The notes under the pieces: model-generated
What the model saw: the letters and a program-made list of their open reading frames with translations, nothing else
Database searches by the model: none
What the model was told of the DNA's origin: nothing
Made by a program: the position numbers and the translations under genes
In this document: in pieces, positions 15,929-51,157 of the stretch
How positions within the stretch are numbered: the stretch's first letter is position 1
How the letters are laid out: each line of letters starts with the position of its first letter
From: Burkholderia mayonis
GTDB lineage: Bacteria; Pseudomonadota; Gammaproteobacteria; Burkholderiales; Burkholderiaceae
Direction of reading: 5' to 3'
Length of the DNA stretch: 64,000 bases
NCBI RefSeq assembly: GCF_001523745.2
Contig: NZ_CP013386.1
Location: 3,286,001 to 3,350,000 of the forward strand

Positions 15929-17173
15929 TCAATCCAGCGCGCGCAGCACGCCGATCAATTGCTTCGCGGCAACGTCCCAGCGGAATCGCGACGCATACCG
16001 CCGCCCCTTGTCGCGCATCTCGCGCCGCAGCTCGGCATCGCCCATCAGCTGCGCGATCGTCGCCGCTATGTCGATCGCATCGTGTGCGTCGCAATACAGC
16101 GCGGCGTCGCCGCACGCCTCGGGCAGCGACGCCTCGCGCGACACGATCACCGGGCACCCGCAATACATCGCCTCGAGCGGCGGCAGGCCGAATCCTTCGT
16201 ATAGCGAAGGAAACACGAAACAGCCGGCGTTCTCGTAGAGCGCCTTCAGCTCGCCGTCGCTCACGTAGCCTGCCCACGTCACGTTGCGCGCGCTTGCGTT
16301 GTCGCCGAGCGTCGACGTGCCGAAGATCTTGATGTTGCTGCCGCCCGCGATCACGAACTTGAGCTCGGGACGCGTGCGCTCGAGCCTCGCGATCGCGTCG
16401 AGCGTGCGCGCGAGATTCTTGCCTGGCGCGATCGAGCCGACGATCAGCACGAAGCCGTCGTATGCGAGACCGAGCCGCTCGAGCACCGCCGGATCGCTGT
16501 CGATCCTTCCAAAGTGATCGACGCCGGACGCGATCGTCGTCACGTCGGTCGGCGCGACGTTAAGGCGTGCGACGATCCGCTCCTTCGAGAAGCGCGACAC
16601 CGTCAAGATGTGCCGCGCGTTGCGCTTCAGCATCCAGAACGCGAAGCGATACCAGAGCCGGAACGCGAGCGAATAGCCTTGCGGAAAGTCGAACACGGCG
16701 ACGTCGTGAATCATCACCACCTGGTTGCGCTTGAAAAGCGGCCCGACGTTGCAGAGGCTGACGAGCGTCTGCCCGCGCGTCGCGAACGGCAGCGCGAGCT
16801 GCTCCCACAGCGCGCCGCGCAAGCGGGGCACGACGCGTCGCGCGACCGCGGGCGGCAGCGCATCGCTCGCGTGATCGCGAGGCACGACGAGCGTCGGATT
16901 GCGCTCGCCCGGCAACAGACGCGCGAGCGCCGACGTGAACTCGTGCGCGACGCGCTGCACCCCCGTCAGGCGCTGCGACGTGAACTTGCCGTTGATCGCG
17001 ACGGGCGTCGGCAAGGCCGTGGCGCTCGCACGCTCGCCGGCAAATGCAGCGCGATGCGGCGTGTCGTGCACCGTGCCCGCCGCCTGCGACGCGCTCGCCG
17101 ACGTTACATCGAAGTCCTGACGATCGCGTAGCGTGTGCAGCGACGGCTTGGATAAGGGGGAAGACAGATTCAT
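15929..17173 (-). CDS. GT4-type glycosyltransferase
   Basis: 414 residues with a GT-B fold. The C-terminal nucleotide-sugar part shows [20 protein letters not shown] and the E-x7-E motif in [20 protein letters not shown], typical of mannosyl/glucosyl transferases of the GT4 family. The N-terminal acceptor part begins with [20 protein letters not shown]. No signal peptide, so it should act on the cytosolic face on a lipid-linked glycan. Start at the ATG 17171-17173 (MNLSSPLSK). Last gene of the leftward crp/wcaJ/wza operon. Confidence 0.9.
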
Positions 17174-17297
17174 GGCGGCTGCAACGGCGTGACGACACCC
17201 GATTGACGAACGCATCCGCGACGTTCGCGGAAGCGCGCTATACACGTTCCAGTGTCGTCATTCCGTTGCGCGCGGTCTGTGCGTTCCGTCGCACAAC

Positions 17298-17343: not shown

Positions 17344-18633
17344 TCAGCGACCGCGGCTCACCGACCAGATCAGATAGAACGATTCGGCGGTCGGCAGGAT
17401 CTGCGCGAGCATCCGATTGAAGCGCGCAGCGGGCGCCGTGCCGACGTATACGACGTCGAGCGGCTTCATGTCGAACTCGGTCGCGAGCATCAATGCGTCC
17501 ACCTGCGTCATGTCGAGACGGAACACTTCGGGCTTGTTGTGTTCGGGCGCGTAGTTGACCTTCTTCAGGCCTTCCTGCAATCCGCTTTGCACGCCGGGCG
17601 CCTGCGCGAGCGGCGGATTCGGATGGCGAATGACGATTACCTGGCGCGGGTTCGCCCCCGTCGGATCGATGCTGCCGGCTGCGCTCAACGCGTCCGCGAG
17701 CGACAACTGCCCCTGGTTCATGTAGACCGTCTGCGGCTTTGGCACCTCGCCCATCACGAACACGCGGTTCCGCGTACGGTCGGGCACGTGAACGATGTCA
17801 TCCGCTTGCAGCACGATGTTCTGTCGCAAGTCGCCGCGATTCAGAATGCGGTTCACGTCGATCGTCATCACCTGATCGCCGCGCGTGACGAGCACGCGCT
17901 GCAGATCGGCGTCGGGATTGCCGCCGCCCGCGCGGTTGAGCGCGTCGACGAGGCGCAGATGCGAGCCCGTCAGCGACAGTTGCCCCGGGTTCTTCACGTC
18001 GCCCGTCACCTGCACGCGCTGGCTGCGGTACTGCATCACGCGCACGTCGATCTGAGGATTTCTGATCTGCTTGTTCAGACGCCGAGCGAGCAGCGCGGAG
18101 ATCTGCACGGGGCTCATCCCTTCGACGCGCAAGCGGCCGAGTGTCGGAAAGAAGATCGTGCCGTTGGCGGCGACGCGCTGGCCCGGCGAGTCGACCTCGC
18201 CCTGCCCGTTCGTGCCGAATGCGCTGACCTGCTGCGGCAGCACGCCGCCGAGACCGCCCGACGCCTGCAGCGTGCCGATGTCGGCGAGCGGCGACGTGTC
18301 GGCGCCCGTGCCGTTCCCGCCGCCGCGCGTGAGCTCGGGGTGGTCCCAGACAACGATGCCGAGCACATCGTCCGGGCCGACGCGATAGTCGGCCGGCGCA
18401 GCGGGCAGGCTCGGCCCAATGCCTGCTTCCTTCGCGCGCGTGTCGGCCTCGTCGGCCTGCTTGAGCGTATAGACGAGCTGCGGCGTGATCAGCTTGATGT
18501 CGTACACCGTCGAATCCGTCGGTGCGCTGAGGTTGTCGTTCATGCGGCTCGAATCGAGCGCCGGTCCCGGGGCCAGCGCACAGCCCGACAAGGCGACCGC
18601 CGCGGCGGTCGCCCATGCTAGGGGCTTCAACAT
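17344..18633 (-). CDS. Polysaccharide export outer-membrane lipoprotein (Wza/BceE type)
   Basis: 429 residues. A lipoprotein signal ends at VALSGCALAPG (Cys near residue 18). Then comes a poly_export domain (ADYRVGPDDVLGIVVWDHPE) and two SLBB domains (VQVTGDVKNPGQLSLTG; VFVMGEVPKPQTVYMNQGQL). This is the octameric outer-membrane channel family that exports capsule or exopolysaccharide made by the Wzx/Wzy route. The true start is the ATG at 18631-18633; the frame stays open upstream into the neighbouring gene, but that is not coding. The glycine-rich insert near residue 110 is longer than usual. A Wzc-type partner kinase is not encoded nearby. Confidence 0.93.
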   Translation of the reverse strand: MLKPLAWATAAAVALSGCALAPGPALDSSRMNDNLSAPTDSTVYDIKLITPQLVYTLKQADEADTRAKEAGIGPSLPAAPADYRVGPDDVLGIVVWDHPELTRGGGNGTGADTSPLADIGTLQASGGLGGVLPQQVSAFGTNGQGEVDSPGQRVAANGTIFFPTLGRLRVEGMSPVQISALLARRLNKQIRNPQIDVRVMQYRSQRVQVTGDVKNPGQLSLTGSHLRLVDALNRAGGGNPDADLQRVLVTRGDQVMTIDVNRILNRGDLRQNIVLQADDIVHVPDRTRNRVFVMGEVPKPQTVYMNQGQLSLADALSAAGSIDPTGANPRQVIVIRHPNPPLAQAPGVQSGLQEGLKKVNYAPEHNKPEVFRLDMTQVDALMLATEFDMKPLDVVYVGTAPAARFNRMLAQILPTAESFYLIWSVSRGR

Positions 18634-18704
18634 CTTGTCGTTTCTCCTTGGTAGCGTGGTCGTCGAAGACGATCTTGGTTCTCGGTGTACGCGCTGCAGG
18701 CTGC

Positions 18705-20087
18705 TCAGAACGCGTTGCGGCCGATGAATCCCTTGACGAGCGTAATCAGGATGATCTTGATGTCGAACCAGAAGGTCCAGTTCTGCATGTAGAAGAGGTC
18801 GAACTTCACGCGCGCGGCCATCTTCTCGACCTTGCGCGTCTCGCCTCGATAACCGTTCACCTGCGCCCAGCCGGTGATGCCGGGACGCACGCGATAGCGG
18901 TACATGTAGCCGTCGACGAGCTCCTTGTAGATGTCGTCGTGCTCGATCGCGTGCGGACGCGGACCGACGACCGACATCTGGCCGAACAGCACGTTGAGAA
19001 ATTGCGGCAGCTCGTCGAGCGACGTGCGGCGCAGGAACGCGCCGACCTTCGTGATCCGCGAATCGTTGCGCGACGCCTGGCGCACGACGCCTCCCTCCTC
19101 GGCATGCACGCGCATCGTGCGGAACTTCAGGATCTCGAACTCGCGGCCGTCGACGCCCTTGCGTTTCTGCCGGAACAATACGGGGCCCGGCGACGACAGC
19201 TTCACCGCGAGCGCGAGCGAGGCGAGAATCGGCGACAGCGGAATCAGCACCGCGAGCGCGAACAGACGATCGAACATGAACTTGGGCCACAGCTGCGGAA
19301 TCGACAGCGGGCTCGTCGCGAGATTGATCGCGGGCATGCCGACCACCTGCGTGACCGACCGGTTGAAGAACGTGATGCCGCGCACGTCGGGCAGGAAGCG
19401 CAGGTTCACGAAATCGTGCCGAAACTCGCGCACGATCCGCTGAATCTGCCGCTCGTGCGACAGCGGCAGCGCCAGCCAGATCTCGTCGATCGCGCCTGCG
19501 CGCACGCGGCGCTTCAGCTCGCGCAGATCGGCGACGACGGGCACGCCGCCGACATGACGCTCCGCATCGGCGACGCGCACGCTGTCGTCGAATACGCAAA
19601 CCGCCTCGTAGCCGTGCGACGACGACGCACGCAGTTGCTCGATCACCGCACGCCCATAAACCTCGGAGCCGACGATCGCGACCGCGCGCGGCTTCGCGCC
19701 CGGCCGGCGCAAACCGGTCAGCACGCCGTGGATCGACGCCTTGCCGAGTAGCAGCACCGCGCCCGACATCAGCATCGTCCGGCCGAGCCAGACGAGCGAC
19801 ACGTCGGCGTCGCGATGCAGCAGCAGCGTGAACGCCGCGGCGATCGCGGCAACGCCGAGCCAGCCGAGCAACACGCGCGACAGCGTGCGATACGACATCT
19901 GCTCGCGCGCGCCGTCGTACACGCCGATCGCCGGAAAGACGATCAGCGTCAACGCGCACAGCAGCGCGATGGCCGTACGCTGCGCGTCCGGCACGTCGAG
20001 CGTGCCGCTGTCGTACAGCACCTGTGCGAGCAACGCCCCCGCTGCCACCAGTACCACGTCGAGCAACTTGTTCAAGAGTCCCAACAT
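18705..20087 (-). CDS. Undecaprenyl-phosphate sugar phosphotransferase (WcaJ/BceB type)
   Basis: 460 residues, polyprenyl glycosylphosphotransferase family. Four hydrophobic segments (residues 1-125) are followed by a CoA-binding-like middle domain (AVAIVGSEVYGRAVIEQL). A fifth membrane segment and the C-terminal catalytic bacterial-sugar-transferase domain come next: SSPGPVLFRQKRKGVDGREF, EILKFRTM, TSLDELPQFLNVLFGQMSVV and RPGITGWAQVNGYRGET. It starts lipid-linked repeat synthesis by transferring a sugar-1-phosphate (glucose-1-P in close relatives) to undecaprenyl phosphate. Start ATG at 20085-20087. Operon with the export lipoprotein. Confidence 0.93.
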   Translation of the reverse strand: MLGLLNKLLDVVLVAAGALLAQVLYDSGTLDVPDAQRTAIALLCALTLIVFPAIGVYDGAREQMSYRTLSRVLLGWLGVAAIAAAFTLLLHRDADVSLVWLGRTMLMSGAVLLLGKASIHGVLTGLRRPGAKPRAVAIVGSEVYGRAVIEQLRASSSHGYEAVCVFDDSVRVADAERHVGGVPVVADLRELKRRVRAGAIDEIWLALPLSHERQIQRIVREFRHDFVNLRFLPDVRGITFFNRSVTQVVGMPAINLATSPLSIPQLWPKFMFDRLFALAVLIPLSPILASLALAVKLSSPGPVLFRQKRKGVDGREFEILKFRTMRVHAEEGGVVRQASRNDSRITKVGAFLRRTSLDELPQFLNVLFGQMSVVGPRPHAIEHDDIYKELVDGYMYRYRVRPGITGWAQVNGYRGETRKVEKMAARVKFDLFYMQNWTFWFDIKIILITLVKGFIGRNAF

Positions 20088-20119
20088 TGCCGAATCTCCA
20101 CTTTCCTCGTTCTGTCGTC

Positions 20120-20929
20120 TCAAGCAGCCGAGCGCACGACGCCGTGATAACCGGCGGCGCGTAGCGGCCGGCCTTCCGCCGGAATCGGCTGCGGCGTGTG
20201 CGCTTCGCGCGTCGCCTCGAGGATGAGGCGGTTGAATTCGCCGCGAATCACGCCGTAGCACTCGCACGCGTGCGTTTCGAGGCCGTGCCGGTCGAGCACC
20301 GTGATGTGTCCGCGGCGCTGGCGGATGAACCCCGCCTCCTGCAGCTTGCCCGCCGCTTCGGTAATGCCTTCTCGACGCACGCCGAGCATGTTCGCGATCG
20401 TCTGTTGCGTGACCGCGAGTTCGTCGCCTTCGACGCGATCGTGCGCGAGCAGCAGCCAGCGGCTCAGTTGCTCGCTGACGGAGTGATGACGGTTGCAGAG
20501 CGCGCTGCGCGCGATCTGCGTCATCGCGGCCTGCCAATAGCGGAGCATCAATTGGTAGGTGTCGAGCGAGCGGTCGAATTCGCGCCGAAACACCTGGGTC
20601 GGCACGCGATAGGCGAAGCCGCCGCTGCGCACCTCGACGCGGCCCGACGCCCCGCCGCAGCCGTAGTCGGCGAGCGTCGACACGCCGACCACGCCTTCTC
20701 TGCCGACTGCGGCGACTTCGACCATCGCGCCGTCCTCCATCAGATACAGCACGGACATCATCGCGGTGGTCGGGAAATACAGATGACGCATCGGCTCGTC
20801 GGTTTCGCAAAGTAGTTGCGCGCTCTTGATCTTCACGAGCTCGAGATGCGGTGCGAGCGCGCGGAGGCTGTCGTCGGCAAGCGAGCCCAGCAGGGCGTTG
20901 GCATGAAAACCATTGGTCTGATGAAGCAT
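20120..20929 (-). CDS. Crp/Fnr family transcriptional regulator (first copy)
   Basis: 269 residues: an N-terminal cyclic-nucleotide-binding-like beta-roll (LELVKIKSAQLLCETDEPMR, about residues 30-50) and a C-terminal winged helix (LAVTQQTIANMLGVRREGIT, about 173-192). It lacks the Fnr cysteine cluster. It is the first gene of the leftward wcaJ/wza/GT operon, 32 bases before wcaJ, and is preceded by a 928-base regulatory region with a sigma-54-type promoter. It resembles the second Crp/Fnr protein encoded across that region. In B. cenocepacia the cyclic-di-GMP-binding Crp/Fnr protein BerA controls an exopolysaccharide cluster; a similar role is possible here but ligand residues cannot be judged by eye. 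Confidence 0.9.
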   Translation of the reverse strand: MLHQTNGFHANALLGSLADDSLRALAPHLELVKIKSAQLLCETDEPMRHLYFPTTAMMSVLYLMEDGAMVEVAAVGREGVVGVSTLADYGCGGASGRVEVRSGGFAYRVPTQVFRREFDRSLDTYQLMLRYWQAAMTQIARSALCNRHHSVSEQLSRWLLLAHDRVEGDELAVTQQTIANMLGVRREGITEAAGKLQEAGFIRQRRGHITVLDRHGLETHACECYGVIRGEFNRLILEATREAHTPQPIPAEGRPLRAAGYHGVVRSAA

Positions 20930-21100
20930 GTTCGTGTCCCGGTTTGTCAGCGCCGCTCAAGTCGCGGCGCAGGGTTCCGTTTTTCGCAAGACACGGTCAC
21001 AGCAAGAATCGTTGTTCCTCGGAATCGTGTCGGCGGCCCTTCTGGTCGTCCTCATACAAGCTGATGCATCACCCTCTTGGGGGGGGGTGAAAACCCTTAA

Positions 21101-21661: not shown

Positions 21662-21857
21662 TGTCAACATTTGTGAAATGCGCATCGTATGCAAACCTCA
21701 AAAAATCCGACGTGATAATCTGAAATTGTATTTTCAACGTCAAGCTGAATTAACAAATAAAAATCGTACCTGTCTAGCCAGGCGGGTTCGATTGCGCGCG
21801 GCGCCCGGCCAGGCACTGCGCCGTTGCTCCGGATCTCCGATCCGGAAAGGACAAACC

Positions 21858-22869: not shown

Positions 22870-23121
22870 ATGAAAAACGAATTGAGAACAATCATCAAGG
22901 ACGTCGCGCATCTCGAAGCGTCGATCGACCATATCGCGGACAGCGACGACCTTTACGAAGCGGGCCTGTCTTCGCTGAACACGATTCAGTTGATGCTCGC
23001 CATCGAGAAGCGCTTCAACATCGAGATTCCGGATGAAATGCTGAACCGCCAGCTCTTCCAGAGCATCGACTCGCTTGCCGGAGCCGTCACGCATCTGCAG
23101 CGTGCCGCACAATCCGCATGA
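22870..23121 (+). CDS. Acyl/aminoacyl carrier protein
   Basis: 83 residues, the size of a discrete carrier protein. EAGLSSLNTIQLMLAIEKRF is the phosphopantetheine attachment region; S35, just before Leu, takes the cofactor (a Ser replaces the usual Asp at position 34). Then IEIPDEML and a helix III region follow as in ACPs. It overlaps the next gene by ATGA. Next to an aminoacyl-tRNA-synthetase-like ligase it is more likely loaded with an amino acid than with a fatty acid. An AGCCGCCAG leader gives only a weak ribosome site. Confidence 0.9.
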   Translation: MKNELRTIIKDVAHLEASIDHIADSDDLYEAGLSSLNTIQLMLAIEKRFNIEIPDEMLNRQLFQSIDSLAGAVTHLQRAAQSA

Positions 23122-24341
23122 AGCGCTTCGACGCCGAAACCGGCAACGCACGCGTCGCTGCCGTCGAATCCCTGCTCGCCGACGATCACTCGTTGAACGA
23201 AGCCGCGCGCCGCGTCGCGCAAGTCGCCGCACGCTTCGCCGACGCGGTCGATCGCGACGCGCGCTTTCCGACCGAAGCGATCGACGCGATGCGCGAAGAG
23301 CGCCTGCTCGGCGCGCTCGTGCCGACCGAACTGGGCGGCCGCGGCGCTTCGCTTGCAGCCGTCGCCGCCGCGTGCCGGATCATCGGCCAGGCCTGTTCGT
23401 CGGCCGCGATGATCTATGCGATGCATCAGACGCAGGTCGCGAGCATCGTCGATCACGCGCTGTCGAGCGACTGGCACCGCCGCTTCGTCGAGCAGCTCGC
23501 CGAGCGCGAATGGCTGCTCGCGTCGGCGACGTCCGAAGAAGAAGTCGGCGGCAATCTGCGCAACAGCCGCTGCGCGATCGAAGCCGAAGACGACACCTTC
23601 ACGCTCGCGAAGCTCGCGCCGACGATCTCGTACGGCGCGCAAGCGGACGCGATCCTCGTGACCGCGCGGCGCCATCGCGACGCGCCCGCCGCCGAGCAAG
23701 TGCTCGTCACGCTGCTGAAGGAAAACGCGACGCTCACGCGGCGCAGCGGCTGGGACACGTTCGGCATGCGCGGCACCTGCAGCGAAGGCTTCGCGCTCGA
23801 CGCGCGCGGCCACTGCGAGCAGATCTTCCCCGTGCCGTTCGCGCAAATCGCCGAGCGAACCATGGTGCCGACGTCGCACATCCTGTGGGCGGCAGTATGG
23901 ACCGGCATCGCGAACGACGCATTCCTGCGCGCGCATCAATTCTTCCGCGCGCAGATGCAGAAGCAAGGCGGCGCGCTGCCGCCGTCCGGCCGCCGGATCG
24001 CCGATGCGCTCGCGCTGCTGCAGGCGATGCAGGCGCGCATCGACGGTGCGCTGCGTCTGCATGAGCACAGCGCCGCTCGCTCGTGGTCCGCGTCGATGGC
24101 TCAGGCGGCCGAGATCAACACGCTGAAGACCTACGTGTCGACGACCGCGCTCGACGTAGTCAAGCACGCGACGATGATCTGCGGGATGGCGTCGTACAAG
24201 AACGGCACGCCGTACACGCTCGGCCGCCATATCCGCGACCTGCATTCGGCGCCGCTCATGATCAGCAACGACCGCATCGAAGCCAATACAGCCAACCTGC
24301 TGCTCGCGTTGCGTCCGGCAACGCTGGAGAGAGAGATTTGA
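23118..24341 (+). CDS. Acyl-CoA dehydrogenase-like flavoprotein, probably acting on a carrier-bound substrate
   Basis: 407 residues with the three-domain acyl-CoA dehydrogenase layout: helical N-terminus (VPTELGGRGASLAAVAAACR), central beta domain (LLASATSEEEVGGN) and C-terminal four-helix bundle ending LHSAPLMISNDRIEANTANL. The last motif resembles ACADs that work in natural-product pathways on carrier proteins. It would use FAD to introduce a double bond into, or otherwise oxidise, the thioester-bound acyl or aminoacyl group. It overlaps the carrier gene by four bases. Confidence 0.85.
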   Translation: MKRFDAETGNARVAAVESLLADDHSLNEAARRVAQVAARFADAVDRDARFPTEAIDAMREERLLGALVPTELGGRGASLAAVAAACRIIGQACSSAAMIYAMHQTQVASIVDHALSSDWHRRFVEQLAEREWLLASATSEEEVGGNLRNSRCAIEAEDDTFTLAKLAPTISYGAQADAILVTARRHRDAPAAEQVLVTLLKENATLTRRSGWDTFGMRGTCSEGFALDARGHCEQIFPVPFAQIAERTMVPTSHILWAAVWTGIANDAFLRAHQFFRAQMQKQGGALPPSGRRIADALALLQAMQARIDGALRLHEHSAARSWSASMAQAAEINTLKTYVSTTALDVVKHATMICGMASYKNGTPYTLGRHIRDLHSAPLMISNDRIEANTANLLLALRPATLEREI

Positions 24342-24346
24342 ACGAC

Positions 24347-25312
24347 ATGACCAATCCTTCTGCGCATGCGGCCGAAACGGTTCAGGCGCCCATCGATCGC
24401 GACGGCGTGAATGCGCTGCGCGACGAGCTCGTCGAAGCGGGGCTGTTGATCTCGACGGGCATTCAGGGCCTCTTCGGTCGCAGCGAGAAGTTCGAGCGCG
24501 TCGTCGACGCGCTTGACGCCTACATCACGCGCCTCGGCGCCGACCAGCATGCGGAAGTGCTGCGCTTTCCACCTGCGATGAGCCGACCGGAGTTCGAGCG
24601 CAGCGAGTATCTGAAGAGCTTCCCGCAGCTCGCGGGCACCGTGCACAGCTTCTGCGGCGGCGAGCACGATCAGCAGCGCGTGCTGCAATGCCTCGATCGC
24701 GGCGAGGACTGGACCGAGAGCCAGAAGCCGACCTACGTCGTGATGACGCCCGCCGCATGCTATCCGGTCTATCCCGTCATCGCGCAGCGCGGCGCGCTGC
24801 CCGCCGACGGCCGGATCGTCGACGCGTTCTCGTACTGCTTCCGCCACGAGCCGTCGCTCGATCCGACGCGCATGCAACTGTTCCGGATGCGCGAGTACAT
24901 CCGGATCGGCACGCCCGAACAGATTCTCGCGTTCCGTCAGGGCTGGATCGAGCGCGGCACGCGGATGATCGAAGCGCTGCGGCTGCCGAACAGCATCGAC
25001 CTCGCGAACGACCCGTTCTTCGGGCGCGGCGGCAAGATCGTCGCGAGCAGCCAGCGCGACCAGAACCTGAAGTTCGAACTCCTGATTCCGATCGAATACG
25101 ACGGACGCCTGACCGCATGCCTGAGCTTCAACTACCACATGGACCACTTCGGCCTGCTGTGGGGCATCAAGACGGCCGACGCCGAGGTCGCGCACACGGG
25201 CTGCGTCGGCTTCGGCCTCGAACGCCTGACGCTCGGCCTCTTCAGGCATCACGGCTTCGATCTCGACGCATGGCCGCAGGCGGTACGCGACGTACTGTGG
25301 GGACATCGATGA
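24347..25312 (+). CDS. Amino acid:[carrier protein] ligase (class II seryl-tRNA-synthetase-like)
   Basis: 321 residues, a trimmed class II aminoacyl-tRNA synthetase catalytic core without a tRNA-binding arm. Motif 2 is SYCFRHEPS (R166, E168) and motif 3 is CVGFGLERLTLGL (R293). C138, E183 and C286 are well placed for the Zn site that binds the substrate amino group in this family and in atypical SerRS. Known members (first shown in Bradyrhizobium) activate glycine or alanine with ATP and load it on the phosphopantetheine arm of a small carrier protein instead of tRNA. The partner carrier gene lies two genes upstream. ATG at 24347 is preceded by a GGAGAGAGAG purine run. Confidence 0.9.
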   Translation: MTNPSAHAAETVQAPIDRDGVNALRDELVEAGLLISTGIQGLFGRSEKFERVVDALDAYITRLGADQHAEVLRFPPAMSRPEFERSEYLKSFPQLAGTVHSFCGGEHDQQRVLQCLDRGEDWTESQKPTYVVMTPAACYPVYPVIAQRGALPADGRIVDAFSYCFRHEPSLDPTRMQLFRMREYIRIGTPEQILAFRQGWIERGTRMIEALRLPNSIDLANDPFFGRGGKIVASSQRDQNLKFELLIPIEYDGRLTACLSFNYHMDHFGLLWGIKTADAEVAHTGCVGFGLERLTLGLFRHHGFDLDAWPQAVRDVLWGHR

Positions 25313-26397
25313 GCAGCATCCTGCTCGATGCGCCGGCGAACGGCGCGTCGCTCGAAGAAATCTTCACCGACATCCGGCATCGCGTGCGGCACTACCGGCC
25401 GCACGCGCTGCACGGACCGCAGATGGTCTGGAAGCAGACCAACTGCTACGTCGATCTATGGATCGAAGTGCTCGGCTGGTGGGGGCTCAATCCGTATGCG
25501 GCGCTGCCGTTTACGATCACGCTCGACTTCGAGGGCGACCAGTTCTCGTTCTTCAAGTTTCCGTTCGAGGATCTCGAGACGCTGTACGGGATCGTCGTAC
25601 AGGAGCATGCGATTTTCGAGCCGGTCGACGTGCACGTCGAGAACCAGGTCGCGCGCGGCCACCTGATGCTCGTCGAAGTCGATGCGTGGTATCTGCCGGA
25701 TACGCGCGGCAACAGCTATCAGACCGAGCATACGAAGACGACGATCGGCATCGACGCGATCGACCGAGAACGGCGACGCGTCGGCTACTTCCACAACAGC
25801 GGCTACTACCTCGCGGAAGGCATCGACTACGACGGCCTGTTCGGCAAGCACGCGCCGTCGCAGCTCGTGCCATACGTCGAATGCGCGAAGCGCCGATTCA
25901 AGCCGCTCGAGGAACGCGAGCTGTGCGAAGCGTCGCTCGCGCTTCTGGCGCGCCATCTGAAGCGGCGGCCGACGTCGAATCCGATCGCGGCATTCCGCCA
26001 GCAGCTCGCTCGCGACGCGAAGACGATCGCGTCGCAACCGATCTCGTACTTTCACGCGTATTCGTTCAACACGCTGCGGCAGCTCGGCGCGAACTTCGAG
26101 CTGTTCGGCCGCTATCTGCGCTGGCTCGAAGCGAGCGGCTGCAGCGGCCCGTTCGACACGCTCGTCGCCGCATGCGACACGATCGCGTCGGAATCGATGG
26201 TGCTCGAATTCCGTCTCGCGCGCGCGAGCGCGCGCGGCAAGGAGGAGCGCGGCGAAAGCAGTCTCGACATTCTCGAGCGCGCGCATGCGTCGCTCGTCGG
26301 CGGCGTCGCGCGAATCGCACCGCCCGGCAAGGCCGAGCCGAATCCGCCATTCGGCACGCTGTACGTGCCGCCGAGGCCCGTCTCCGCGGTCAGATGA
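25309..26397 (+). CDS. DUF1839 family protein
   Basis: 362 residues of the DUF1839 type, found beside amino acid:carrier protein ligases; activity unproven. Visible features: a conserved N-terminal block WKQTNCYVDLWIEVLGWWGL with a candidate reactive cysteine, MLVEVDAWYLPDT, a strongly conserved KTTIGID, and YFHNSGYYLAEGIDYDGLF. These resemble a transglutaminase/cysteine-protease-like or butirosin BtrH-like N-terminal fold, so it may transfer the carrier-bound amino acid to an amine or hydroxyl; this is inference. It overlaps both neighbours by four bases (ATGA), indicating strict co-translation. Confidence 0.8.
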   Translation: MSSILLDAPANGASLEEIFTDIRHRVRHYRPHALHGPQMVWKQTNCYVDLWIEVLGWWGLNPYAALPFTITLDFEGDQFSFFKFPFEDLETLYGIVVQEHAIFEPVDVHVENQVARGHLMLVEVDAWYLPDTRGNSYQTEHTKTTIGIDAIDRERRRVGYFHNSGYYLAEGIDYDGLFGKHAPSQLVPYVECAKRRFKPLEERELCEASLALLARHLKRRPTSNPIAAFRQQLARDAKTIASQPISYFHAYSFNTLRQLGANFELFGRYLRWLEASGCSGPFDTLVAACDTIASESMVLEFRLARASARGKEERGESSLDILERAHASLVGGVARIAPPGKAEPNPPFGTLYVPPRPVSAVR

Positions 26398-28913
26398 AAT
26401 CCGCGCCGGATCGCGCGGCGCTCAGCGCCGCCCAATGGACGTTGATCGCGACGCCCGCGGGCGCGATCGCGCGACCGAGCGAGCTCTGCGAAACCGGCTG
26501 GTGCGCCGCGCCCGTGCCCGGCACCGTCGCGCAGGCGCTCGCCGCCGCGCGGCGCTTCGATCCCGCGCATCCGTATCCGCTCGGCGACAGCGACTATTGG
26601 TATCGAACGACCTTGCACGGCGCGGGACCGCGCATCGTCCGACTGAACGGTCTCGCGACGATCGCCGAGGTCTGGCTCGACGATACGCTGCTGCTCTGCT
26701 CGGACAATATGTACATCGCGCACGATGTCGCCGTGACGCTCAGCGGCGCGAACCGCTTCTCCGTCTGCTTCCGCTCGCTCGACCGGCATCTCGCCGCGCA
26801 CCCGCCGCGCGGCCGTGCACGCTGGCGCACGCGTCTCGTCGACACGCCCGCGCTGCGCGGCGTGCGCGCGACGTTCCTCGGCCGGATGCCCGGCTGGTTT
26901 CCGGCGATCGAGCCGATCGGTCCGTGGCGCGCCATCGAAATCGCGAATCCGGCCGGCGCGCCGACGATCTTGCGCGACACGCTGCGCGCGACGTTCGACG
27001 GCCGCGACGGCATCCTCGACGCGACGCTCGAATTCGCCGCGCCGCTCGCGAACGCGGCGCACGCGCAACTCGTCTGCGGCGCGCACGCGGCGGCGCTCGA
27101 GACAACCGGTCCGCACACCGCGCGCGCGACGCTGAGGATTCCGAATGTCACGCCGTGGTGGCCGCACACGCACGGCGAGCCGGCGCTGTACGACATCGGC
27201 GTCGAAATCGGCGGCGCGACGATTCCGCTCGCCAAAACCGGCTTTCGCATGCTCGCCGTCGAACGCGGCGCCGATGGCCGAGGCTTCGCGCTGTCGGTCA
27301 ACGGCACGCCGATCTTCGCGCGCGGCGCGTGCTGGACGAGCGCAGACCCGGCCGGCCTGCAGGCCGATCCCGCTGCATACCGCCGCGCACTCACGCTCGC
27401 GCGCGACGCCGGCTGCAACATGATCCGCGTCGGCGGCACGATGATCTACGAAGCCGACGCGTTCTACGCGCTGTGCGACGAACTGGGCCTGCTCGTCTGG
27501 CAGGACTTCATGCTCGCGAACTTCGACTATCCGTCGGCTGACCCGCGCTTCACCGAGTCGCTGAAGCGCGAAGCCGAACAGTTTCTCGATCGGCATGCCG
27601 CGCGGCCGTCGATCGCCGTGCTGTGCGGCGGCAGCGAAATCGCGCAGCAAGCGGCGATGGTCGGGCTCGCGCCAGACGAGCGTCGCACGCCGCTCACCGA
27701 GCAGTTGCTCGCCGAGCTCTGCGTCGAGCATCGGCCCGATGCGATCTACATCGCCGATTCGCCGCACGGCGGCGTATTGCCGTTCGCGCCGCGCGAAGGC
27801 GTCACGCATTACTACGGCGTCGGCGCGTATCTGCGGCCGCCCGAAGACGCGCGCCGCGCCGGCGTACGCTTTGCGAGCGAGTGCCTCGCGTTCGCGAATG
27901 TGCCGTGCGACGCGACGCTCGCATCGATCGGCTCGCCCGCCGCGCACGAGCCGAACTGGAAACGCGCAGTGCCGCGCGATCCGGGCGCACCGTGGGACTT
28001 CGACGACGTGCGCGACCATTACCTGCGCACACTATACGGCGTCGAGCCCGCGCGTTTGCGCGGCAGCGACCCCGCGCGCTATCTGACGCTGTCGCGCGCG
28101 ATCGCCGCCGATCTCGTCGCCGAGACGCTGTCCGAATGGCGGCGCGTCGGTTCATCGTGCGCGGGCGCGCTCGTCTGGCAGTTCCAGGACGTGATGCCGG
28201 GCGCCGGCTGGGGCCTCGTCGACGCGCATGGCCGGCCGAAATCCGCCTGGCATGCGCTCAAGCGCGTGTCGCAACCACGGCAGATCCTGCTGACCGACGA
28301 GGGGCTCAACGGTCTCGACGTGCACGCGCTCAACGACACGCCCACGCCGCTCGACGCTCGCGTCGAGCTCGTCGCGTTGCGTGACGGCAGGACGCCTCTC
28401 GTGCGCGTGGACCATGCGTTGCGCATCGACGCCCACGCCGGCGTATGCATGAACGCCGCCGATCTGCTCGGACGATTCTTCGACTTCACGTACGCGTATC
28501 GCTTCGGCCCGCGCGAGCACGACGTCGTGCTCGCATCGCTGTATGCGGCCGACGGCGCGCTGCTGTCGCAGGCCTTCCACTTCCCGGAACGTACCGCGCC
28601 GACCGTGTTCGAGCGCGGCGATATCGGCCTCGAAGCGAGCGCCGCGTATCGCGACGGCCGCTGGCACGTCGACGTGCAGACGCGCACGTTCGCGCGCTAC
28701 GTGCACGTCGTCGCGCCCGGCCTGCTGCCGGACCTCGACTGGTTTCATCTCGCGCCCGGCGCCGCCGCGCGAATCGAGCTCTCTGCCGACCCTCGTTTCC
28801 CCGCTTCCGACGACAACCCGCCCGACGCGCCCGCAGCTCGCCCTGCGCCGCCCGCGATCGAGGTGCGCGCACTGAATTCCAACAAGACCGTTCGCTCGAG
28901 GATAGAAAATTGA
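26394..28913 (+). CDS. Glycoside hydrolase family 2 protein (beta-mannosidase-like)
   Basis: 839 residues: N-terminal jelly roll (DSDYWYRTTLHG, VWLDDTLLLCSDNMY), immunoglobulin-like domain, TIM barrel from about residue 300 (MIRVGGTMIYEADAFYALCD, LVWQDFMLANFDYP) and a beta-rich C-terminus. The acid/base is E415 in LCGGSE and the nucleophile E496 in RFASECLAF, so the retaining machinery is intact. No signal peptide is seen, implying a cytosolic enzyme. It may trim a mannose-containing intermediate, hydrolyse faulty glycan, or work in the glycosynthetic direction; ManC in the locus suggests GDP-mannose is a building block. Overlaps both neighbours by four bases. Confidence 0.87.
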   Translation: MKSAPDRAALSAAQWTLIATPAGAIARPSELCETGWCAAPVPGTVAQALAAARRFDPAHPYPLGDSDYWYRTTLHGAGPRIVRLNGLATIAEVWLDDTLLLCSDNMYIAHDVAVTLSGANRFSVCFRSLDRHLAAHPPRGRARWRTRLVDTPALRGVRATFLGRMPGWFPAIEPIGPWRAIEIANPAGAPTILRDTLRATFDGRDGILDATLEFAAPLANAAHAQLVCGAHAAALETTGPHTARATLRIPNVTPWWPHTHGEPALYDIGVEIGGATIPLAKTGFRMLAVERGADGRGFALSVNGTPIFARGACWTSADPAGLQADPAAYRRALTLARDAGCNMIRVGGTMIYEADAFYALCDELGLLVWQDFMLANFDYPSADPRFTESLKREAEQFLDRHAARPSIAVLCGGSEIAQQAAMVGLAPDERRTPLTEQLLAELCVEHRPDAIYIADSPHGGVLPFAPREGVTHYYGVGAYLRPPEDARRAGVRFASECLAFANVPCDATLASIGSPAAHEPNWKRAVPRDPGAPWDFDDVRDHYLRTLYGVEPARLRGSDPARYLTLSRAIAADLVAETLSEWRRVGSSCAGALVWQFQDVMPGAGWGLVDAHGRPKSAWHALKRVSQPRQILLTDEGLNGLDVHALNDTPTPLDARVELVALRDGRTPLVRVDHALRIDAHAGVCMNAADLLGRFFDFTYAYRFGPREHDVVLASLYAADGALLSQAFHFPERTAPTVFERGDIGLEASAAYRDGRWHVDVQTRTFARYVHVVAPGLLPDLDWFHLAPGAAARIELSADPRFPASDDNPPDAPAARPAPPAIEVRALNSNKTVRSRIEN

Positions 28914-30862
28914 GACCAGTTCGATTCGACGATTGCTTAGGATGGCTGCATGAGGGACGCACGCGACGCGGCGCTGTCATTTGCGAAGCGCTCGGACACG
29001 AGGCGTTGTGGACGCACAAGGTGGTTCGCGCGCTCGCCGAGCGTCTCGCCGACGACGGCATGTGGGTGCTGCGCTTTCATTACCCGTCCGCGGGCGACTC
29101 GGCGGGCGACGATCTCGCGCCGGGGCGGCTGCCTGCGAGCGTCGCGAGCGTGCGGCGCGCGCTCGCCGTGCTGCGCGACAGCGCGCCCGTCGACGACGTC
29201 ACGCTCGTCGGCCTGCGCGCGGGCGCCGCGTTCGCGATGCTCGCGCTCGCGGGCAACGACACGCCGGCCGTCGATGCGTTCGTCGCGCTCGCGCCTGTCG
29301 TGCGCGGCCGCGCCTATCTGCGCGAACTCTCGGTCGTGCAGAAGCGCTGGCTCGACACGACGCCGCCCGCGATCCGCGAGCAGCATCACGAGGAAGCGTG
29401 GCTCAACATCCTCGGCCACCGCTACCCGGCCGATTTCGTCGCCGATCTGAAGCAGGTCGATCTGAACGACGCGGTCGCGGCGACGATCGCGCCGCCGCGC
29501 GCCGCGCTGCTCGTCGATACCGGCTACGGCGACGGCCCCGCGCTGCGCGCCGCGCTCGTCGCGCGCGGCGTGTCGACGGACGTCGAGCCTTTCCCGGAAT
29601 GGCCGAACGCGCTGCAGGAAGGCGCGCGCTCGCGCGTGCCGCTCGCGGCGCTCGAATCGATCGCGCGCTGGATCGGGCGCGGCGAACGTTCGGCGGAATC
29701 GGAGTCGGCTGAGGCCGCCCGCGACGATCTCATGACCGCCGCACCGGCATCGAATGAGGCGATCGCGATTGCATCGCGCATCGCCGAGACGGCCAACGCA
29801 GCGAACGCTTCAAATGCAACGCGCGCCGCACATGATGCGAAAGCCTCTTCGCCGATCACGTTCGCATTCGACGGCGTCGCCGAAACGCTCGTCTACATCG
29901 GCGCAAAGCGGCTCGTCGGCACGCTGTGCGAACCCATCGCGCCTGCGCACGCCGGCACGCCGTGCCTGCTGATCGCGAGCACCGCGGCGAATCCGCGAAG
30001 CGCGGACGGCCGCATCGGCGTACGACTCGCGCGCACGCTCGCGCAACGCGGCATCGCATCGCTGCGGGTCGACATCGAAGGCATCGGCGACAGCGGCGCG
30101 CGCGCGCCGGACGATCAATCAGTGGTGCTGTATTCCGATCCGGCGATCGCGGACGTCGTCACGGCCGCCGACTGGCTCGGCGCGCGCTGCCGACGGCCGG
30201 TCGTCGCGTTCGGCGTGTGCTCGGGCGCGTTCGCCGCGCTGCATGCGACCGCGCATGCGCACGCGACCGTCGGCGTGATTGCAGTCAATCTGCCGCGCTT
30301 CATCTGGCCGCGCGGGCTCACGATCGCCGAAGCACGCAAGCAGCAGACGAACTCCGCGCGCGGCTATTTCGCATCGATGCGCGACTGGGACAAATGGCGC
30401 CGGCTGCTGCGCGAAGGCCGCGACCTGCGCCCCGTGCTGAGCGCGCTGCGTCGCCACGTCACCGCGCGCCTGAGCGAGCCGGCGGGACGCCTCGCCGAAC
30501 GGCTCGGCCGGCCACCGAAACGCGACACGCCGCGCGGTCTGATCAAGGCGCTCACCGACCGAAATGTCCGCACGATGCTCGTCTACGGCGAATTCGACCC
30601 CGGCGTCGACGAGCTGAGCCGCTACTTCGGCTCGCCGCGCCGTGCGTTCAAGCGCTCGCCGCTCGTGAGCGTCGAGATGATCCGCCTGCTCGATCATTCG
30701 GTGTACGGCACGTCGGCGGCAGAGATGGTCATCGCGCTCTGCATCGACACGTTGACGGCCTGGGGCGACAAGACACGCGGACTGCAGCCGCGAATCCGGC
30801 CGACCGACAGGCGGCACGGCGCGCCGCACGCGGCTTCCGCCGATGCGGCCGCGTCGTCCTGA
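28910..30862 (+). CDS. Tandem alpha/beta-hydrolase fusion with substituted nucleophiles
   Basis: 650 residues from a TTG at 28910 that overlaps the GH2 stop and has GAGG at 28899-28902. Two alpha/beta-hydrolase domains (about 1-265 and 325-620) are joined by an Ala/Asn-rich linker. Both resemble the hydrolases associated with exosortase/polysaccharide loci. The first has GLRAG at the nucleophile elbow, with R103 where Ser is expected, so it may be non-catalytic. The second has GVCSG, placing C437 at the nucleophile position. A cysteine-nucleophile domain suits thioesterase or acyl transfer from the carrier protein. An Arg/Pro-rich tail ends the protein. Confidence 0.82.
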   Translation: MRPVRFDDCLGWLHEGRTRRGAVICEALGHEALWTHKVVRALAERLADDGMWVLRFHYPSAGDSAGDDLAPGRLPASVASVRRALAVLRDSAPVDDVTLVGLRAGAAFAMLALAGNDTPAVDAFVALAPVVRGRAYLRELSVVQKRWLDTTPPAIREQHHEEAWLNILGHRYPADFVADLKQVDLNDAVAATIAPPRAALLVDTGYGDGPALRAALVARGVSTDVEPFPEWPNALQEGARSRVPLAALESIARWIGRGERSAESESAEAARDDLMTAAPASNEAIAIASRIAETANAANASNATRAAHDAKASSPITFAFDGVAETLVYIGAKRLVGTLCEPIAPAHAGTPCLLIASTAANPRSADGRIGVRLARTLAQRGIASLRVDIEGIGDSGARAPDDQSVVLYSDPAIADVVTAADWLGARCRRPVVAFGVCSGAFAALHATAHAHATVGVIAVNLPRFIWPRGLTIAEARKQQTNSARGYFASMRDWDKWRRLLREGRDLRPVLSALRRHVTARLSEPAGRLAERLGRPPKRDTPRGLIKALTDRNVRTMLVYGEFDPGVDELSRYFGSPRRAFKRSPLVSVEMIRLLDHSVYGTSAAEMVIALCIDTLTAWGDKTRGLQPRIRPTDRRHGAPHAASADAAASS

Positions 30863-30922: not shown

Positions 30923-32308
<1,386 letters not shown>

Positions 32309-33046
32309 TGGTGCCTCCGATAATGAACTGACTGTGTGACTCGACGAATCCATGTGTGGGCAAAAGCCGACAATCGTCCGCCTGCCGGCAACGCCGTGCG
32401 AGATGGGAGCGTGTCGCACCCCGCCCGTACACGATGCCGGGACGCGCCCGCTCGTATCGTTCGGGAGCGCGCGTCAGATGCCTCTTTGGTCTCTGATTGA
32501 AGGTTAGATTTCGCAAAGAAAGCGGCGACGTATCGTTTCGGCCGCGTTTTTCACGTGCGGCGCGCCGCAGGATCCGCAGGCGGCCTTGGACAAGGGACGC
32601 AAGGTCCGCTCCGAAAGCCGCGACACGCGCCGAATCGCCCGCGTGGCCGGGCTTGTTGAACTCGTCCGGAAAGATCGTGCGGCACACCGCGCAATCCTCA
32701 TCACCTCGCTCTCTCAAGATGGCTTTACTACGTCATGCTCATGAAGCCGACTGTCGAAGTTACTCTACCATTCGCACTCTTTTACGATCGAATTCCCAAC
32801 CTTGATTTGACCATCGTTGACCATCTATTGGGCAATTGCCACGGCCGGAATCGGACACTTTCGCCACGGCATACCCATTGTGGCGCAGCGGCGCCGTAAT
32901 GTTTGTGTATGAATGAAACAAATCCTTCCGGATCGATCGATGTCTGCCCGGTTTTTATTGAGATAAGACATTTGCGTTATTCCGTTGAGTCGTTTCATTG
33001 AATGTCTGCGTGGCTTCTCTGCGTTGCTTGAATATGGCTCGCGCGT
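32309..33046. other. Non-coding spacer upstream of the sigma-54 activator
   Basis: 738 bases between the activator start and the end of the PAP2 gene. Its right half (about 32.75-33.0 kb) is AT-rich like the other regulatory spacer of this locus. No convincing gene or GG-N10-GC promoter was found. Confidence 0.45.
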
Positions 33047-33748
33047 TCAGCGCGTATCGTCGAGCCAGACGCGGCTCCATTCGGCGAATTTCGGCGCGGC
33101 GTGCGAAATCCATGCGCTCACAGGCGCGCTTCGTCCGTAACACGACAAGGCGATCGTGCAAGCCGCCGCGACGAACGCGATCGTCGATCGCGAAACGCCC
33201 GCTGCACGTCGTGCGGCGACGGCGTCGACGTACGCGTGCGTGTTGCGATCCGCACGCGTCGACGTCGAACGAACCGCGCCTGCATGCGCGTCGCCGGCAC
33301 GCGCACCGGCGCGACGCAGGCGACGCGCCGTCGACATCGCGACGCCCGCGCCAAGCAGCCAGCCGGATGCGATTTCGGACCATGAATGAAAGCCGAGCAG
33401 CACGCGCGAAATGCCGATCGCGAGTGCGAATGCAAGACCCGCCGCCACTGCACGCCGTACGTGGGCGTCGCGCACGCTGATCGCCGCGACGAGCGGGTAC
33501 ACGGCCGCGCCGAGCATCGTGTGGCCGCTCATGCCGGTGAATCGCCAAGCGGCGATGCCGATTCCCCAGCCTGCGTAGATGAATTTCGTCGACGCGACCA
33601 AGCCGACCGCGCACGCGAAACCGATCGCCCAATATAGCGCTGCGCGACGGCGTCCGGTCGCCGCGAGCCAGCTCGACACCGCGACGGCGAGCGGCGCGGT
33701 AAGAAACGGGTCGCCGAAATTGGTCAACAGAACGAGTAATCGCATCAC
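33047..33748 (-). CDS. PAP2-family membrane phosphatase
   Basis: 233 residues with several hydrophobic helices. PAP2 motif 2 appears as TGMSGHTML (Met for the usual Pro/Ser) and motif 3 as SRVLLGFHSWSE (catalytic His, Glu for Asp). Motif 1 is weak. PAP2 enzymes in polysaccharide loci dephosphorylate undecaprenyl pyrophosphate or lipid-linked sugar phosphates. The C-terminal 90 residues are Arg/Ala-rich and poorly conserved-looking. It follows the glycosyltransferase gene by 24 bases on the same strand. Confidence 0.8.
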   Translation of the reverse strand: MMRLLVLLTNFGDPFLTAPLAVAVSSWLAATGRRRAALYWAIGFACAVGLVASTKFIYAGWGIGIAAWRFTGMSGHTMLGAAVYPLVAAISVRDAHVRRAVAAGLAFALAIGISRVLLGFHSWSEIASGWLLGAGVAMSTARRLRRAGARAGDAHAGAVRSTSTRADRNTHAYVDAVAARRAAGVSRSTIAFVAAACTIALSCYGRSAPVSAWISHAAPKFAEWSRVWLDDTR

Positions 33749-33772: not shown

Positions 33773-35059
33773 TCAAGTGCGCGCGAGCGTTTCGTTCCGG
33801 GAGGCGTCGTGCAGCGACGTCGTCGCATCGCATTCGACGGGCGCGGTGCCCGCCGGGAACAGCGATGCAAGCGGCTCGGCTTGCGTCGTGGAAACGATCG
33901 ACGCGCCCGGCGCCGGCGCGGCGCCCGACGACTCGCCCAATTCCGCTTGCAAGACCGCATAGCCTTCGAGCACGAAACGCGAGAATGCCGAGCGGAACCG
34001 CGCGGCGCTGAAACGCTCCGCATTCGCGCGACAAGCGTGCGGATCGAACGCGCCCGCCGGCATCGCCTCGAACCGGTCGATCGTATCGATCAGCGCGTCG
34101 CACGTCTGCTTCGCATAGAAAAGACCTGTCGGCGCCGTGCCCGTCGCGCGCACCGATTCGCAGACGCCGCCCTTGCCATACGCGATCACGGGCGTCCCGC
34201 ACGCCTGCGCTTCGACGGGCGAAATGCCGAAATCCTCTTCCGCCGCGAACACGAACGCCTTCGCGCGCTGCAGATGATCGTGCAGCACGTCGAACGGCTG
34301 GTAGCCCAGCAGCATGACGTTCGGGCCCGCGAGCGCGCGGATCTTGCCGGCCTCCGGCCCGTCGCCGATCACGACGAGCCGGCGCGACGGCATGTGCGAA
34401 AACGCTTCGACGATCAGATCGATCCGCTTGTACGGCACGAGGCGCGACGCGGTCAGATAGAAGTCGTCCTTCGCGTCGCGCAGCGCGAGATGATCGACGT
34501 CGACGGGCGGATAGATGACCGTCGCGTCGCGTCGATACGTCTTACGAATGCGGCGCGCGACGAAGCGCGAATTCGCCGCGAGCAGATCGACGCCGTTCGC
34601 CGAGCGTGCATCCCAATTGCGGATGTAATGCAGCAGCGAGCGCGCGAGCGCCGACTTCAAGCCGCGCGCGAGTCCTGCTTCGTTCAGGTACTGGTGCTGC
34701 AGATCCCATGCATAGCGGATGGGCGAATGCACGTAGCTCGCGTGCAACTGATCCGGCCCGTTCAACACGCCCTTCGCGACCGCATACGAGCTCGACAGGA
34801 TCAAGTCGTAGCCGGACAGGTCGAATTGCTCGATCGCGAGCGGAAACAGCGGCAGGTAGCTGCGGTATTTGCTGCGCGCGAACGGCAGCTTCTGGACGAA
34901 CGACGTGTGCACCGGCCGGCCACGCAGGCACGAGCGGTCGTCGAGAAAATCGACGAGGCTGTAGATGTCGGCTTGCGGAAAGCAGTCGATCATCTGCGCG
35001 AGCACACGCTCCGCGCCGCCATGCACCACCAGCCAGTCGTGAACGATTGCTACCTTCAA
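33773..35059 (-). CDS. GT4-type glycosyltransferase (WbaZ-like)
   Basis: 428 residues, GT-B fold. N-terminal MKVAIVHDWLVVHGGAERVL and SYVHSPIRYAWDLQHQYLNE are typical of WbaZ-type mannosyltransferases; the donor-binding half has TASRLVPYKRIDLIVEAF and the E-x7-E motif in EEDFGISPVEAQACGTPVIA. Probably transfers mannose from the GDP-mannose made by the nearby ManC. Divergent from the GNAT/manC operon across a 373-base spacer. Confidence 0.92.
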   Translation of the reverse strand: MKVAIVHDWLVVHGGAERVLAQMIDCFPQADIYSLVDFLDDRSCLRGRPVHTSFVQKLPFARSKYRSYLPLFPLAIEQFDLSGYDLILSSSYAVAKGVLNGPDQLHASYVHSPIRYAWDLQHQYLNEAGLARGLKSALARSLLHYIRNWDARSANGVDLLAANSRFVARRIRKTYRRDATVIYPPVDVDHLALRDAKDDFYLTASRLVPYKRIDLIVEAFSHMPSRRLVVIGDGPEAGKIRALAGPNVMLLGYQPFDVLHDHLQRAKAFVFAAEEDFGISPVEAQACGTPVIAYGKGGVCESVRATGTAPTGLFYAKQTCDALIDTIDRFEAMPAGAFDPHACRANAERFSAARFRSAFSRFVLEGYAVLQAELGESSGAAPAPGASIVSTTQAEPLASLFPAGTAPVECDATTSLHDASRNETLART

Positions 35060-35432: not shown

Positions 35433-36065
35433 ATGGACTGGACATGCTGCGAATTCAGGCATCTGAATTCGAACGAGCTTTACATGATCCTTCGCGCACG
35501 CAACGCGGTCCTGGTCGTCGAGGATGCGCACACGTATCTCGACATCGACGGCAAGGACGAATTCGCGATCCACGTGTTCGCAACCGACAAGCGCGGCGAA
35601 CGGCCGTCGATCGCCGCGTATGCGCGTCTTATGCCGGGTGACGACATCGATCCCGAAACGACGATCGACAAGATCCTGACGAGCGCCGCGCATCGCGAAG
35701 ACGGGACGATAGACGCGCTGATCGAACACGTGCTGGCCGCCGCGCACGCGCGCTGGCCGGACGCGCCGGTGCGCGTTCAGGCGCCCGCGCATCGCGAAGA
35801 CTTCTACAACCGCTTCGGTTTCCGCAAGGTCGACGGACCGTATCTCGAGCATGGCGCGCCGTACGTCGGCATGCTGCGCGCGGCGAGCAGCCCGTCGAAG
35901 GCCGTGCGCAACCTGCTCGATCTCGTCGGCGCCGCGACGACCGCGAGCGCCGTCGCGACATCGGCGCCGCGCGCGAAGCGCAAGGCCGATGCCGAATCCA
36001 CCGCCGACGGCGAGCGCTATGCGTTCGCCACCCGACTTCCGGCCGATTCCGGGATGAACCGATGA
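35433..36065 (+). CDS. ElaA-like GNAT family N-acetyltransferase
   Basis: 210 residues. The N-terminal 150 match the ElaA type (LNSNELYMILRARNAVLVVE, DAHTYLDIDGKDE, REDFYNRFGFRKVDGPYLE). The acetyl-CoA loop region around IAAYARLMPG and VRVQAPAHREDFYNRFGF is present. The last 50 residues are an Ala/Lys-rich tail not typical of ElaA. It overlaps manC by ATGA, so it belongs to the sugar-nucleotide operon and might acetylate a sugar or aminoacyl product; the target is unknown. GAGGA lies upstream of the ATG. Confidence 0.85.
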   Translation: MDWTCCEFRHLNSNELYMILRARNAVLVVEDAHTYLDIDGKDEFAIHVFATDKRGERPSIAAYARLMPGDDIDPETTIDKILTSAAHREDGTIDALIEHVLAAAHARWPDAPVRVQAPAHREDFYNRFGFRKVDGPYLEHGAPYVGMLRAASSPSKAVRNLLDLVGAATTASAVATSAPRAKRKADAESTADGERYAFATRLPADSGMNR

Positions 36066-38883: not shown

Positions 38884-38959
38884 TTGATCCGGTTCACTCC
38901 GGCGCGTGCGCCACGCGCGCACGCGCCAAGATGTCGCCCGTGCGACGCGAAGGCCACGC

Positions 38960-46269: not shown

Positions 46270-46301
46270 CGTCACCCCGTATCGGATACCGCGATCGGAA
46301 T

Positions 46302-51147: not shown

Positions 51148-51157
51148 GAAGTGCCGC

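Follow-up and report, generated by a model that had tools for sequence, protein, structure and literature searches.

For the gene neighbourhood of amino acid:[carrier protein] ligases, Aravind and colleagues predicted in 2010, in a note added in proof, that an amino acid is joined to the amino group of a cell-surface sugar; the note points to a conserved open reading frame, Atu2574, as the predicted amide ligase, and to a redox enzyme that is probably a monooxygenase (PMC2922099). In its passage on the topic, a 2022 review still called the biological role unknown (PMC9437257). DUF1839 proteins were described in 2023 as papain-like, with a swapped C-(T/S)-H catalytic order in which the places of His and Thr/Ser are exchanged (PMC10318531). 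CcbD, the condensing enzyme of lincosamide synthesis, couples an amino acid on a carrier to an amino sugar via a cysteine thioester, and residues of the adjacent monomer contribute to its sugar site. Here we describe a stretch of 64,000 nucleotides of Burkholderia mayonis (contig NZ_CP013386.1; hereafter the window), from a genome with two replicons of 3.84 and 2.75 Mb, in which six tightly packed genes, all on the + strand, lie inside an exopolysaccharide locus. With modest confidence, we read this operon as an aminoacyl-transfer module for a cell-surface glycan, in which the DUF1839 protein would transfer the aminoacyl group to an amine. The six genes are as follows.

22870..23121, + strand, discrete carrier protein (PF00550, 45.5 bits; NF005480, 147.3 bits against a curated cut-off of 72; phosphopantetheine site S35)
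23118..24341, + strand, ACAD-fold flavoenzyme, a dehydrogenase or a class D type monooxygenase
24338..25312 (TTG start) or 24347..25312 (ATG start), + strand, amino acid:[carrier protein] ligase with a class II synthetase core (NF005479, 552.3 bits against a curated cut-off of 357)
25309..26397, + strand, DUF1839 protein, proposed aminoacyl-carrier:amine transferase (C46, T144, H162; PF08893, 469.5 bits against a cut-off of 22.5)
26394..28913, + strand, GH2 beta-mannosidase-like glycosidase (PDB beta-mannosidase matches, E 5.1e-41)
28910..30862 (TTG start), + strand, double alpha/beta hydrolase (TIGR03100, 92.9 bits, cut-off 168.45; TIGR03101, 73.3 bits, cut-off 202.75; both below cut-off)

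An earlier, sequence-only reading of this DNA had counted six genes with four overlaps of 4 bases and one 5-base gap, which is the layout obtained with the ATG start of the ligase; if the TTG is taken instead, each of the five junctions is a 4-base overlap, as checked in the sequence letters. The operon is not a chance arrangement, because the carrier and the ligase score above the NCBI curated cut-offs, the DUF1839 score is high and different families share the gene order.

The assignment of the DUF1839 protein is central to our reading. Its predicted model is a confident one (predicted local distance difference test score, pLDDT, 90), and its strong PDB matches are limited to CcbD, CtaG and AziU3/U2. 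Together with the carrier-to-amino-sugar chemistry of CcbD, these matches suggest that DUF1839 is most likely a transferase, with an amine of a glycan precursor as its probable acceptor. The candidate catalytic C46 is found in 64 of 67 aligned rows, the exceptions being the operon copies of two loci (L132 and L133) and protein P0098 of Burkholderia sp. H160, while H162, H141, E123 and D125 are invariant across the aligned rows. A separate set of alignments, which gives the carrier, ligase and GH2 counts below, took the best match per locus, which for L133 is an intact second DUF1839 copy. The sequence-only reading had supposed that an amino acid is loaded, possibly oxidised, and moved onto a sugar. 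Loading is probable, and the transfer becomes plausible through the CcbD fold of DUF1839; that reading had given its account without DUF1839 as the transferase and without the near-identical proposal in the 2010 note (PMC2922099).

The coupling of the ligase to DUF1839 was examined in 398 Pseudomonadota genomes. The ligase model matched 44 of them at E ≤ 0.001, and the 28 above the curated cut-off were counted. DUF1839 is present in 16 genomes at 18 places, the two extra places being second copies elsewhere, and in 16/16 of these genomes a DUF1839 gene directly follows the ligase. In all 15 besides the window's own, the first five genes stand in the same order. Named carriers of the module include Azospirillum sp. 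B510, Rhizobium sp. NLR16a, Mycetohabitans rhizoxinica HKI 454, Shinella sp. WSC3-e and Rhizobium rhizoryzae, and DUF1839 matches occur in 59 of 72,556 plasmid records. Within the genus the ligase was found in 57 of 65 genomes, the window's own included, and it is 90% identical to those of Burkholderia sp. TSV86 and B. singularis, the nearest named loci. A collection of named loci (the best 80 of 300, starting from the ligase) covers Burkholderia, Paraburkholderia, Caballeronia, Mycetohabitans, Pararobbsia, Azospirillum, Methylobacterium and one unplaced Burkholderiales bin. Carrier, flavoenzyme, ligase, DUF1839 and GH2 follow each other in that order on one strand in 76 of these 80 loci; the other four (L005, L010, L013 and L074) are short of one core gene, and each ends at a contig end. 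A simple frame scorer served to call genes in the fetched loci, and tblastn recovered some core genes that it had missed; in two alignments, several rows begin ahead of the likely start and thus include additional N-terminal residues.

Two further genes precede the carrier gene in some relatives. One is class II synthetase-like and the other radical SAM lysine aminomutase-like; the pair is directly upstream in L134 (5881-7991) and L161 (7238-9348) and about 3 kb upstream in L140; the same two protein clusters occur in L136, L138 and L140. In Rhizobium sp. NLR16a, the upstream pair is annotated as EpmA and lysine-2,3-aminomutase-like, with EF-P adjoining.

The carrier and the ligase are strongly conserved. 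S35 of the carrier is present in 102/102 aligned rows. The candidate zinc ligands proposed earlier for the ligase (C138, E183 and C286 in ATG numbering; C141, E186 and C289 in TTG numbering) proved invariant in 108/108 aligned ligases, and their presumed zinc-binding role follows the Bradyrhizobium structure. The best PDB match is the Bradyrhizobium-type ligase 4h2w/3mey (E 6.6e-92). Because the ligase family has solved relatives, an amino acid is probably what is loaded on the carrier.

Two kinds of this ligase can be distinguished. Twelve of the 28 ligase genomes above the cut-off have a ligase without DUF1839; at these 12 loci the flavoenzyme adjoins the ligase in every case and GH2 in none, and no glycan genes were found among the 10 flank genes scanned. 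In a tree of 42 ligases, one branch with a support of 100/100 splits the DUF1839-linked from the DUF1839-less ligases. The solved Bradyrhizobium ligase falls in the DUF1839-less branch, so the enzyme known from structural work represents the kind without DUF1839. Thus, the flavoenzyme is the partner common to both ligase kinds, and DUF1839 and GH2 mark out one of them. A more distant ligase group, scoring about 100-175 bits and therefore below the family cut-off, was observed in 16 of the 398 genomes (G141, G177, G094 and others). These counts also bear on the idea that DUF1839 is a hydrolase or peptidase that clears wrongly loaded amino acids, the loaded carrier serving an unrelated peptide pathway. 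Papain-like folds are often hydrolytic (PMC10318531), which would suit such a role; the ligases without DUF1839 in 12/28 genomes indicate, however, that loading needs no DUF1839 proofreader, and all strong structural matches of DUF1839 come from biosynthetic pathways. We regard this explanation as very improbable.

The flanks of the operon encode the components of a polysaccharide system. ManC, GT4 enzymes, a flippase and an export channel had been reported there by the sequence-only reading, and all were located by their Pfam families, as listed below.

15929..17245, - strand, GT4 glycosyltransferase (PF00534)
17344..19959, - strand, Wza-type polysaccharide export protein, C-terminal part of the open frame (PF02563, PF22461)
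18705..20960, - strand, WcaJ-type sugar-1-phosphate transferase, C-terminal part of the open frame (PF02397, PF13727)
30923..32419, - strand, VpsR-type sigma-54 activator (PF00158, PF20161)
33047..33748, - strand, PAP2-family phosphatase (PF01569)
33773..35059, - strand, GT4 glycosyltransferase (PF00534)
36062..37654, + strand, ManC-type mannose-1-phosphate guanylyltransferase (PF01050, PF00483)
37687..38883, + strand, GT4 glycosyltransferase (PF00534)
38906..40228, + strand, flippase (PF01943)

We used seven glycan proteins of the window as queries (E ≤ 1e-8), with stretches of the window's own genome as controls. At least one glycan gene of the window's types was found in the fetched flanks of 63 of the 80 named loci, and at least two kinds in 51. 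The same test found such a gene in 5 of the 15 diverse loci with DUF1839, in none of the 12 ligase loci that lack it and in none of the 20 control stretches; VpsR, which matched in 2 of the 20 controls, was not counted as a glycan gene. Synteny with polysaccharide genes, the loss of which in all relatives the sequence-only reading had set against its own proposal, is therefore retained in part, and the link of the operon to glycan genes is not universal. Other glycan genes escape this test because only seven window proteins served as queries at that threshold. When selected flank genes were scanned with Pfam, L134, L135 and L141 yielded further genes of this sort: GT4 and Wzz, GH5, flippase and sugar-transfer ATP-grasp genes. 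Two GT4 genes adjoin the GH2 and hydrolase genes in Rhizobium sp. NLR16a, and in Shinella sp. WSC3-e the carrier gene is preceded, at a distance of 6 to 9 kb, by GumC-type and O-antigen-ligase-type genes.

Further genes were observed around the operon. The carrier gene is preceded by two Crp/Fnr-type regulators (20120-20929 on the - strand and 21678-22652 on the + strand), and the operons of Azospirillum sp. B510 and Cupriavidus metallidurans CH34 likewise have genes of this type nearby. A GGDEF-EAL protein (40323-42710, - strand) adjoins the flippase and may form a cyclic-di-GMP link with the VpsR-type regulator. Farther away on the - strand are a 752-residue open frame with a YcaO domain (44017-46275) and a 1464-residue open frame with protein kinase and AAA ATPase domains (47083-51477).

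The reading of the operon as a glycan module must be weighed against several observations that speak against it. A DUF1839 profile search against the PDB gave no match better than E 0.22, and CcbD was not among the four matches listed; the catalytic order described for DUF1839 also differs from that of CcbD (PMC10318531). The 80 named loci are not independent, being the best 80 of 300 and mostly from Burkholderiaceae, and the controls of the glycan test come from one genome only. Among the 15 diverse loci, the strict test found a glycan gene in 5, and the looser search with Pfam scans raised this to 8 by adding L134, L135 and L136; at L137, L138, L140 and L143-L146, no glycan gene was found by the window queries, the flank genes having been scanned in part. 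A protein that clusters with the Wzz-type protein of L135 occurs at L154-L156, three loci without DUF1839. Scans of parts of the window recognised no enzyme that makes amino sugars.

Some of these observations would fit a product that is a free, small sugar-amino acid conjugate, resembling the lincosamide core or mycothiol, which is exported while the polysaccharide genes supply sugar donors or are incidental. CcbD works in a small-molecule pathway, and so do CtaG and AziU3/U2, of the closthioamide and azinomycin pathways, respectively. The 7 of 15 diverse loci without a glycan gene by the window queries (L134-L136 set aside for their GT4 matches) point the same way, as does an ABC transporter gene that immediately precedes the carrier gene in L146 and is found about 4 kb ahead of it in Azospirillum sp. 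B510. In contrast, the glycan genes at 63 of the 80 named loci, the fusion of the hydrolase to a flippase-type domain in L134 and an intact DUF1839 gene beside ManC in C. metallidurans CH34 speak against it, and we consider a free conjugate unlikely.

The gene arrangement in Cupriavidus ties an intact cysteine enzyme to exopolysaccharide genes. In L132 and L133 (two genomes of one genus in the family) and in C. metallidurans CH34, the operon copy of DUF1839 has R or Q in place of C46 and A or S in place of T144 (T144S is also tolerated in intact copies), and an intact copy adjoins ManC. In CH34, some 24 kb hold, in this order, Wza, hydrolase, ManC, intact DUF1839, Crp-type gene, GH2, degenerate DUF1839, ligase, flavoenzyme, carrier and WcaJ. 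The copies without C46, each with an intact copy beside ManC, are the following.

L132, 10935-11921
L133, 9401-10381
L183, about 19765-20682, - strand

P0098 of Burkholderia sp. H160 has Gly at position 46, and the copy at the operon locus of this strain (L033) is intact. The retention of the degenerate copies suggests a role as a non-catalytic partner, much as the sugar site of CcbD draws on a neighbouring monomer. A fuller proposal is that ligase, oxidising flavoenzyme and CcbD-fold transferase place an oxidised aminoacyl amide on a lipid-linked sugar, a glycan decoration of a type not known to us from earlier descriptions, and that one DUF1839 copy can become the non-catalytic partner of an active second copy, as in CH34 and the two other genomes; we offer it tentatively, as rather unlikely to hold in all its parts.

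The flavoenzyme model (pLDDT 87.2) gave TdsC/DszC monooxygenases at Foldseek ranks 1-12, and VIA ranked dehydrogenases first, so that the two types were not separated. The column of the usual ACAD C-terminal glutamate, placed by what we take to be the position of this residue in MCAD, holds I382 in 25/25 rows, in an alignment to 7p98, which itself has Thr there. N384, R386 and H254 are kept in 25/25 rows, and position 388 is variable. We lean slightly towards oxygenation, as the 2010 authors also did in their note (PMC2922099).

In the GH2 protein, E415 and E496 align with Glu residues of the solved beta-mannosidase 2vjx and are present in 93/93 rows; they are presumably the acid/base and the nucleophile. 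The double hydrolase is, by its profile matches, a distant relative of hydrolases 1 and 2 of the exosortase A system, with a GVCSG elbow that places Cys in the second half and a GLRAG stretch in the first half. It lies near the operon in 8 of the 15 diverse DUF1839 loci, 0 of the 12 DUF1839-less ligase loci and 0 of the 20 controls. Of the set of ligase, GH2 and hydrolase, for which the sequence-only reading had suggested a neighbourhood search, ligase and GH2 keep their order in 76 of the 80 named loci, and the hydrolase is near in 18.

In the proposed aminoacyl transfer to a surface glycan, the zinc-dependent class II ligase would activate a small amino acid with ATP and load it onto the phosphopantetheine of the carrier, as its family suggests. 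The flavoenzyme may then dehydrogenate or oxygenate the carrier-bound aminoacyl group. C46 of DUF1839, to judge from the fold and the conserved residues, would take over this group and pass it on to an amine, the likeliest acceptor being an amino sugar of a glycan precursor that is nucleotide- or lipid-linked; the bond would be an amide, as in the CcbD/LmbD reaction. Wrong or unfinished intermediates might be edited by GH2 and the double hydrolase, which is the weakest step. An ester on a sugar hydroxyl could be formed instead of the amide, for which D-alanine on teichoic acids is a precedent; the lack of a recognised amino-sugar gene in the scanned parts of the window would fit this, but the characterised CcbD makes an amide, and we judge an ester improbable.

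Collectively, the conserved gene set seems to give enzymes without a known role a concrete, testable job, the transfer of a carrier-loaded amino acid to a surface-coat sugar. With DUF1839 named as a CcbD-fold acyl transferase beside the ligase in 16/16 DUF1839 genomes, the question of role becomes a short in vitro assay. If the proposal is true, a relative of a translation enzyme has been drafted into decorating bacterial surface sugars, and DUF1839 gains a function.

The amino acid on a cell-surface sugar (2010) and the papain-like nature of DUF1839 (2023) are already known; the CcbD-type fold, the ligase-DUF1839 coupling with its counts, the two ligase kinds and the cysteine loss accompanied by an intact copy at ManC are new here. 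The 2010 prediction concerns the same ligase neighbourhood and an amide on a cell-surface sugar; its passage gives no fold for Atu2574, a candidate counterpart of DUF1839 (PMC2922099).

Compared with CcbD/LmbD, the DUF1839 model shares the overall fold and has a conserved candidate catalytic cysteine (C46, judged by conservation), whereas the identity is 13%, there is no sequence-level match and the triad order is different. The window has a ligase of the aminoacyl-tRNA synthetase type where the lincosamide side has the nonribosomal peptide synthetase-type adenylation enzyme LmbC, and DUF1839 often lies in a cell-surface glycan neighbourhood. CtaG and AziU3/U2 are likened to DUF1839 by overall fold only. 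Bradyrhizobium amino acid:[carrier protein] ligase 1 (3mey, 4h2w) belongs to the same family by the curated cut-off, its core aligns over residues 35-320 with the zinc-ligand positions conserved, and the loci of its 92-93% identical relatives (L148-L153) also have carrier-like and ACAD-fold genes. In contrast, it is 46-56% identical to the DUF1839-linked ligases, and it lies on the separate branch (100/100) whose loci are without DUF1839 and GH2 (0/12). AlmEFG, which glycylates lipid A, and DltABCD use other ligase and transferase families, but they too bring a carrier-borne small amino acid to an envelope glycan or lipid.

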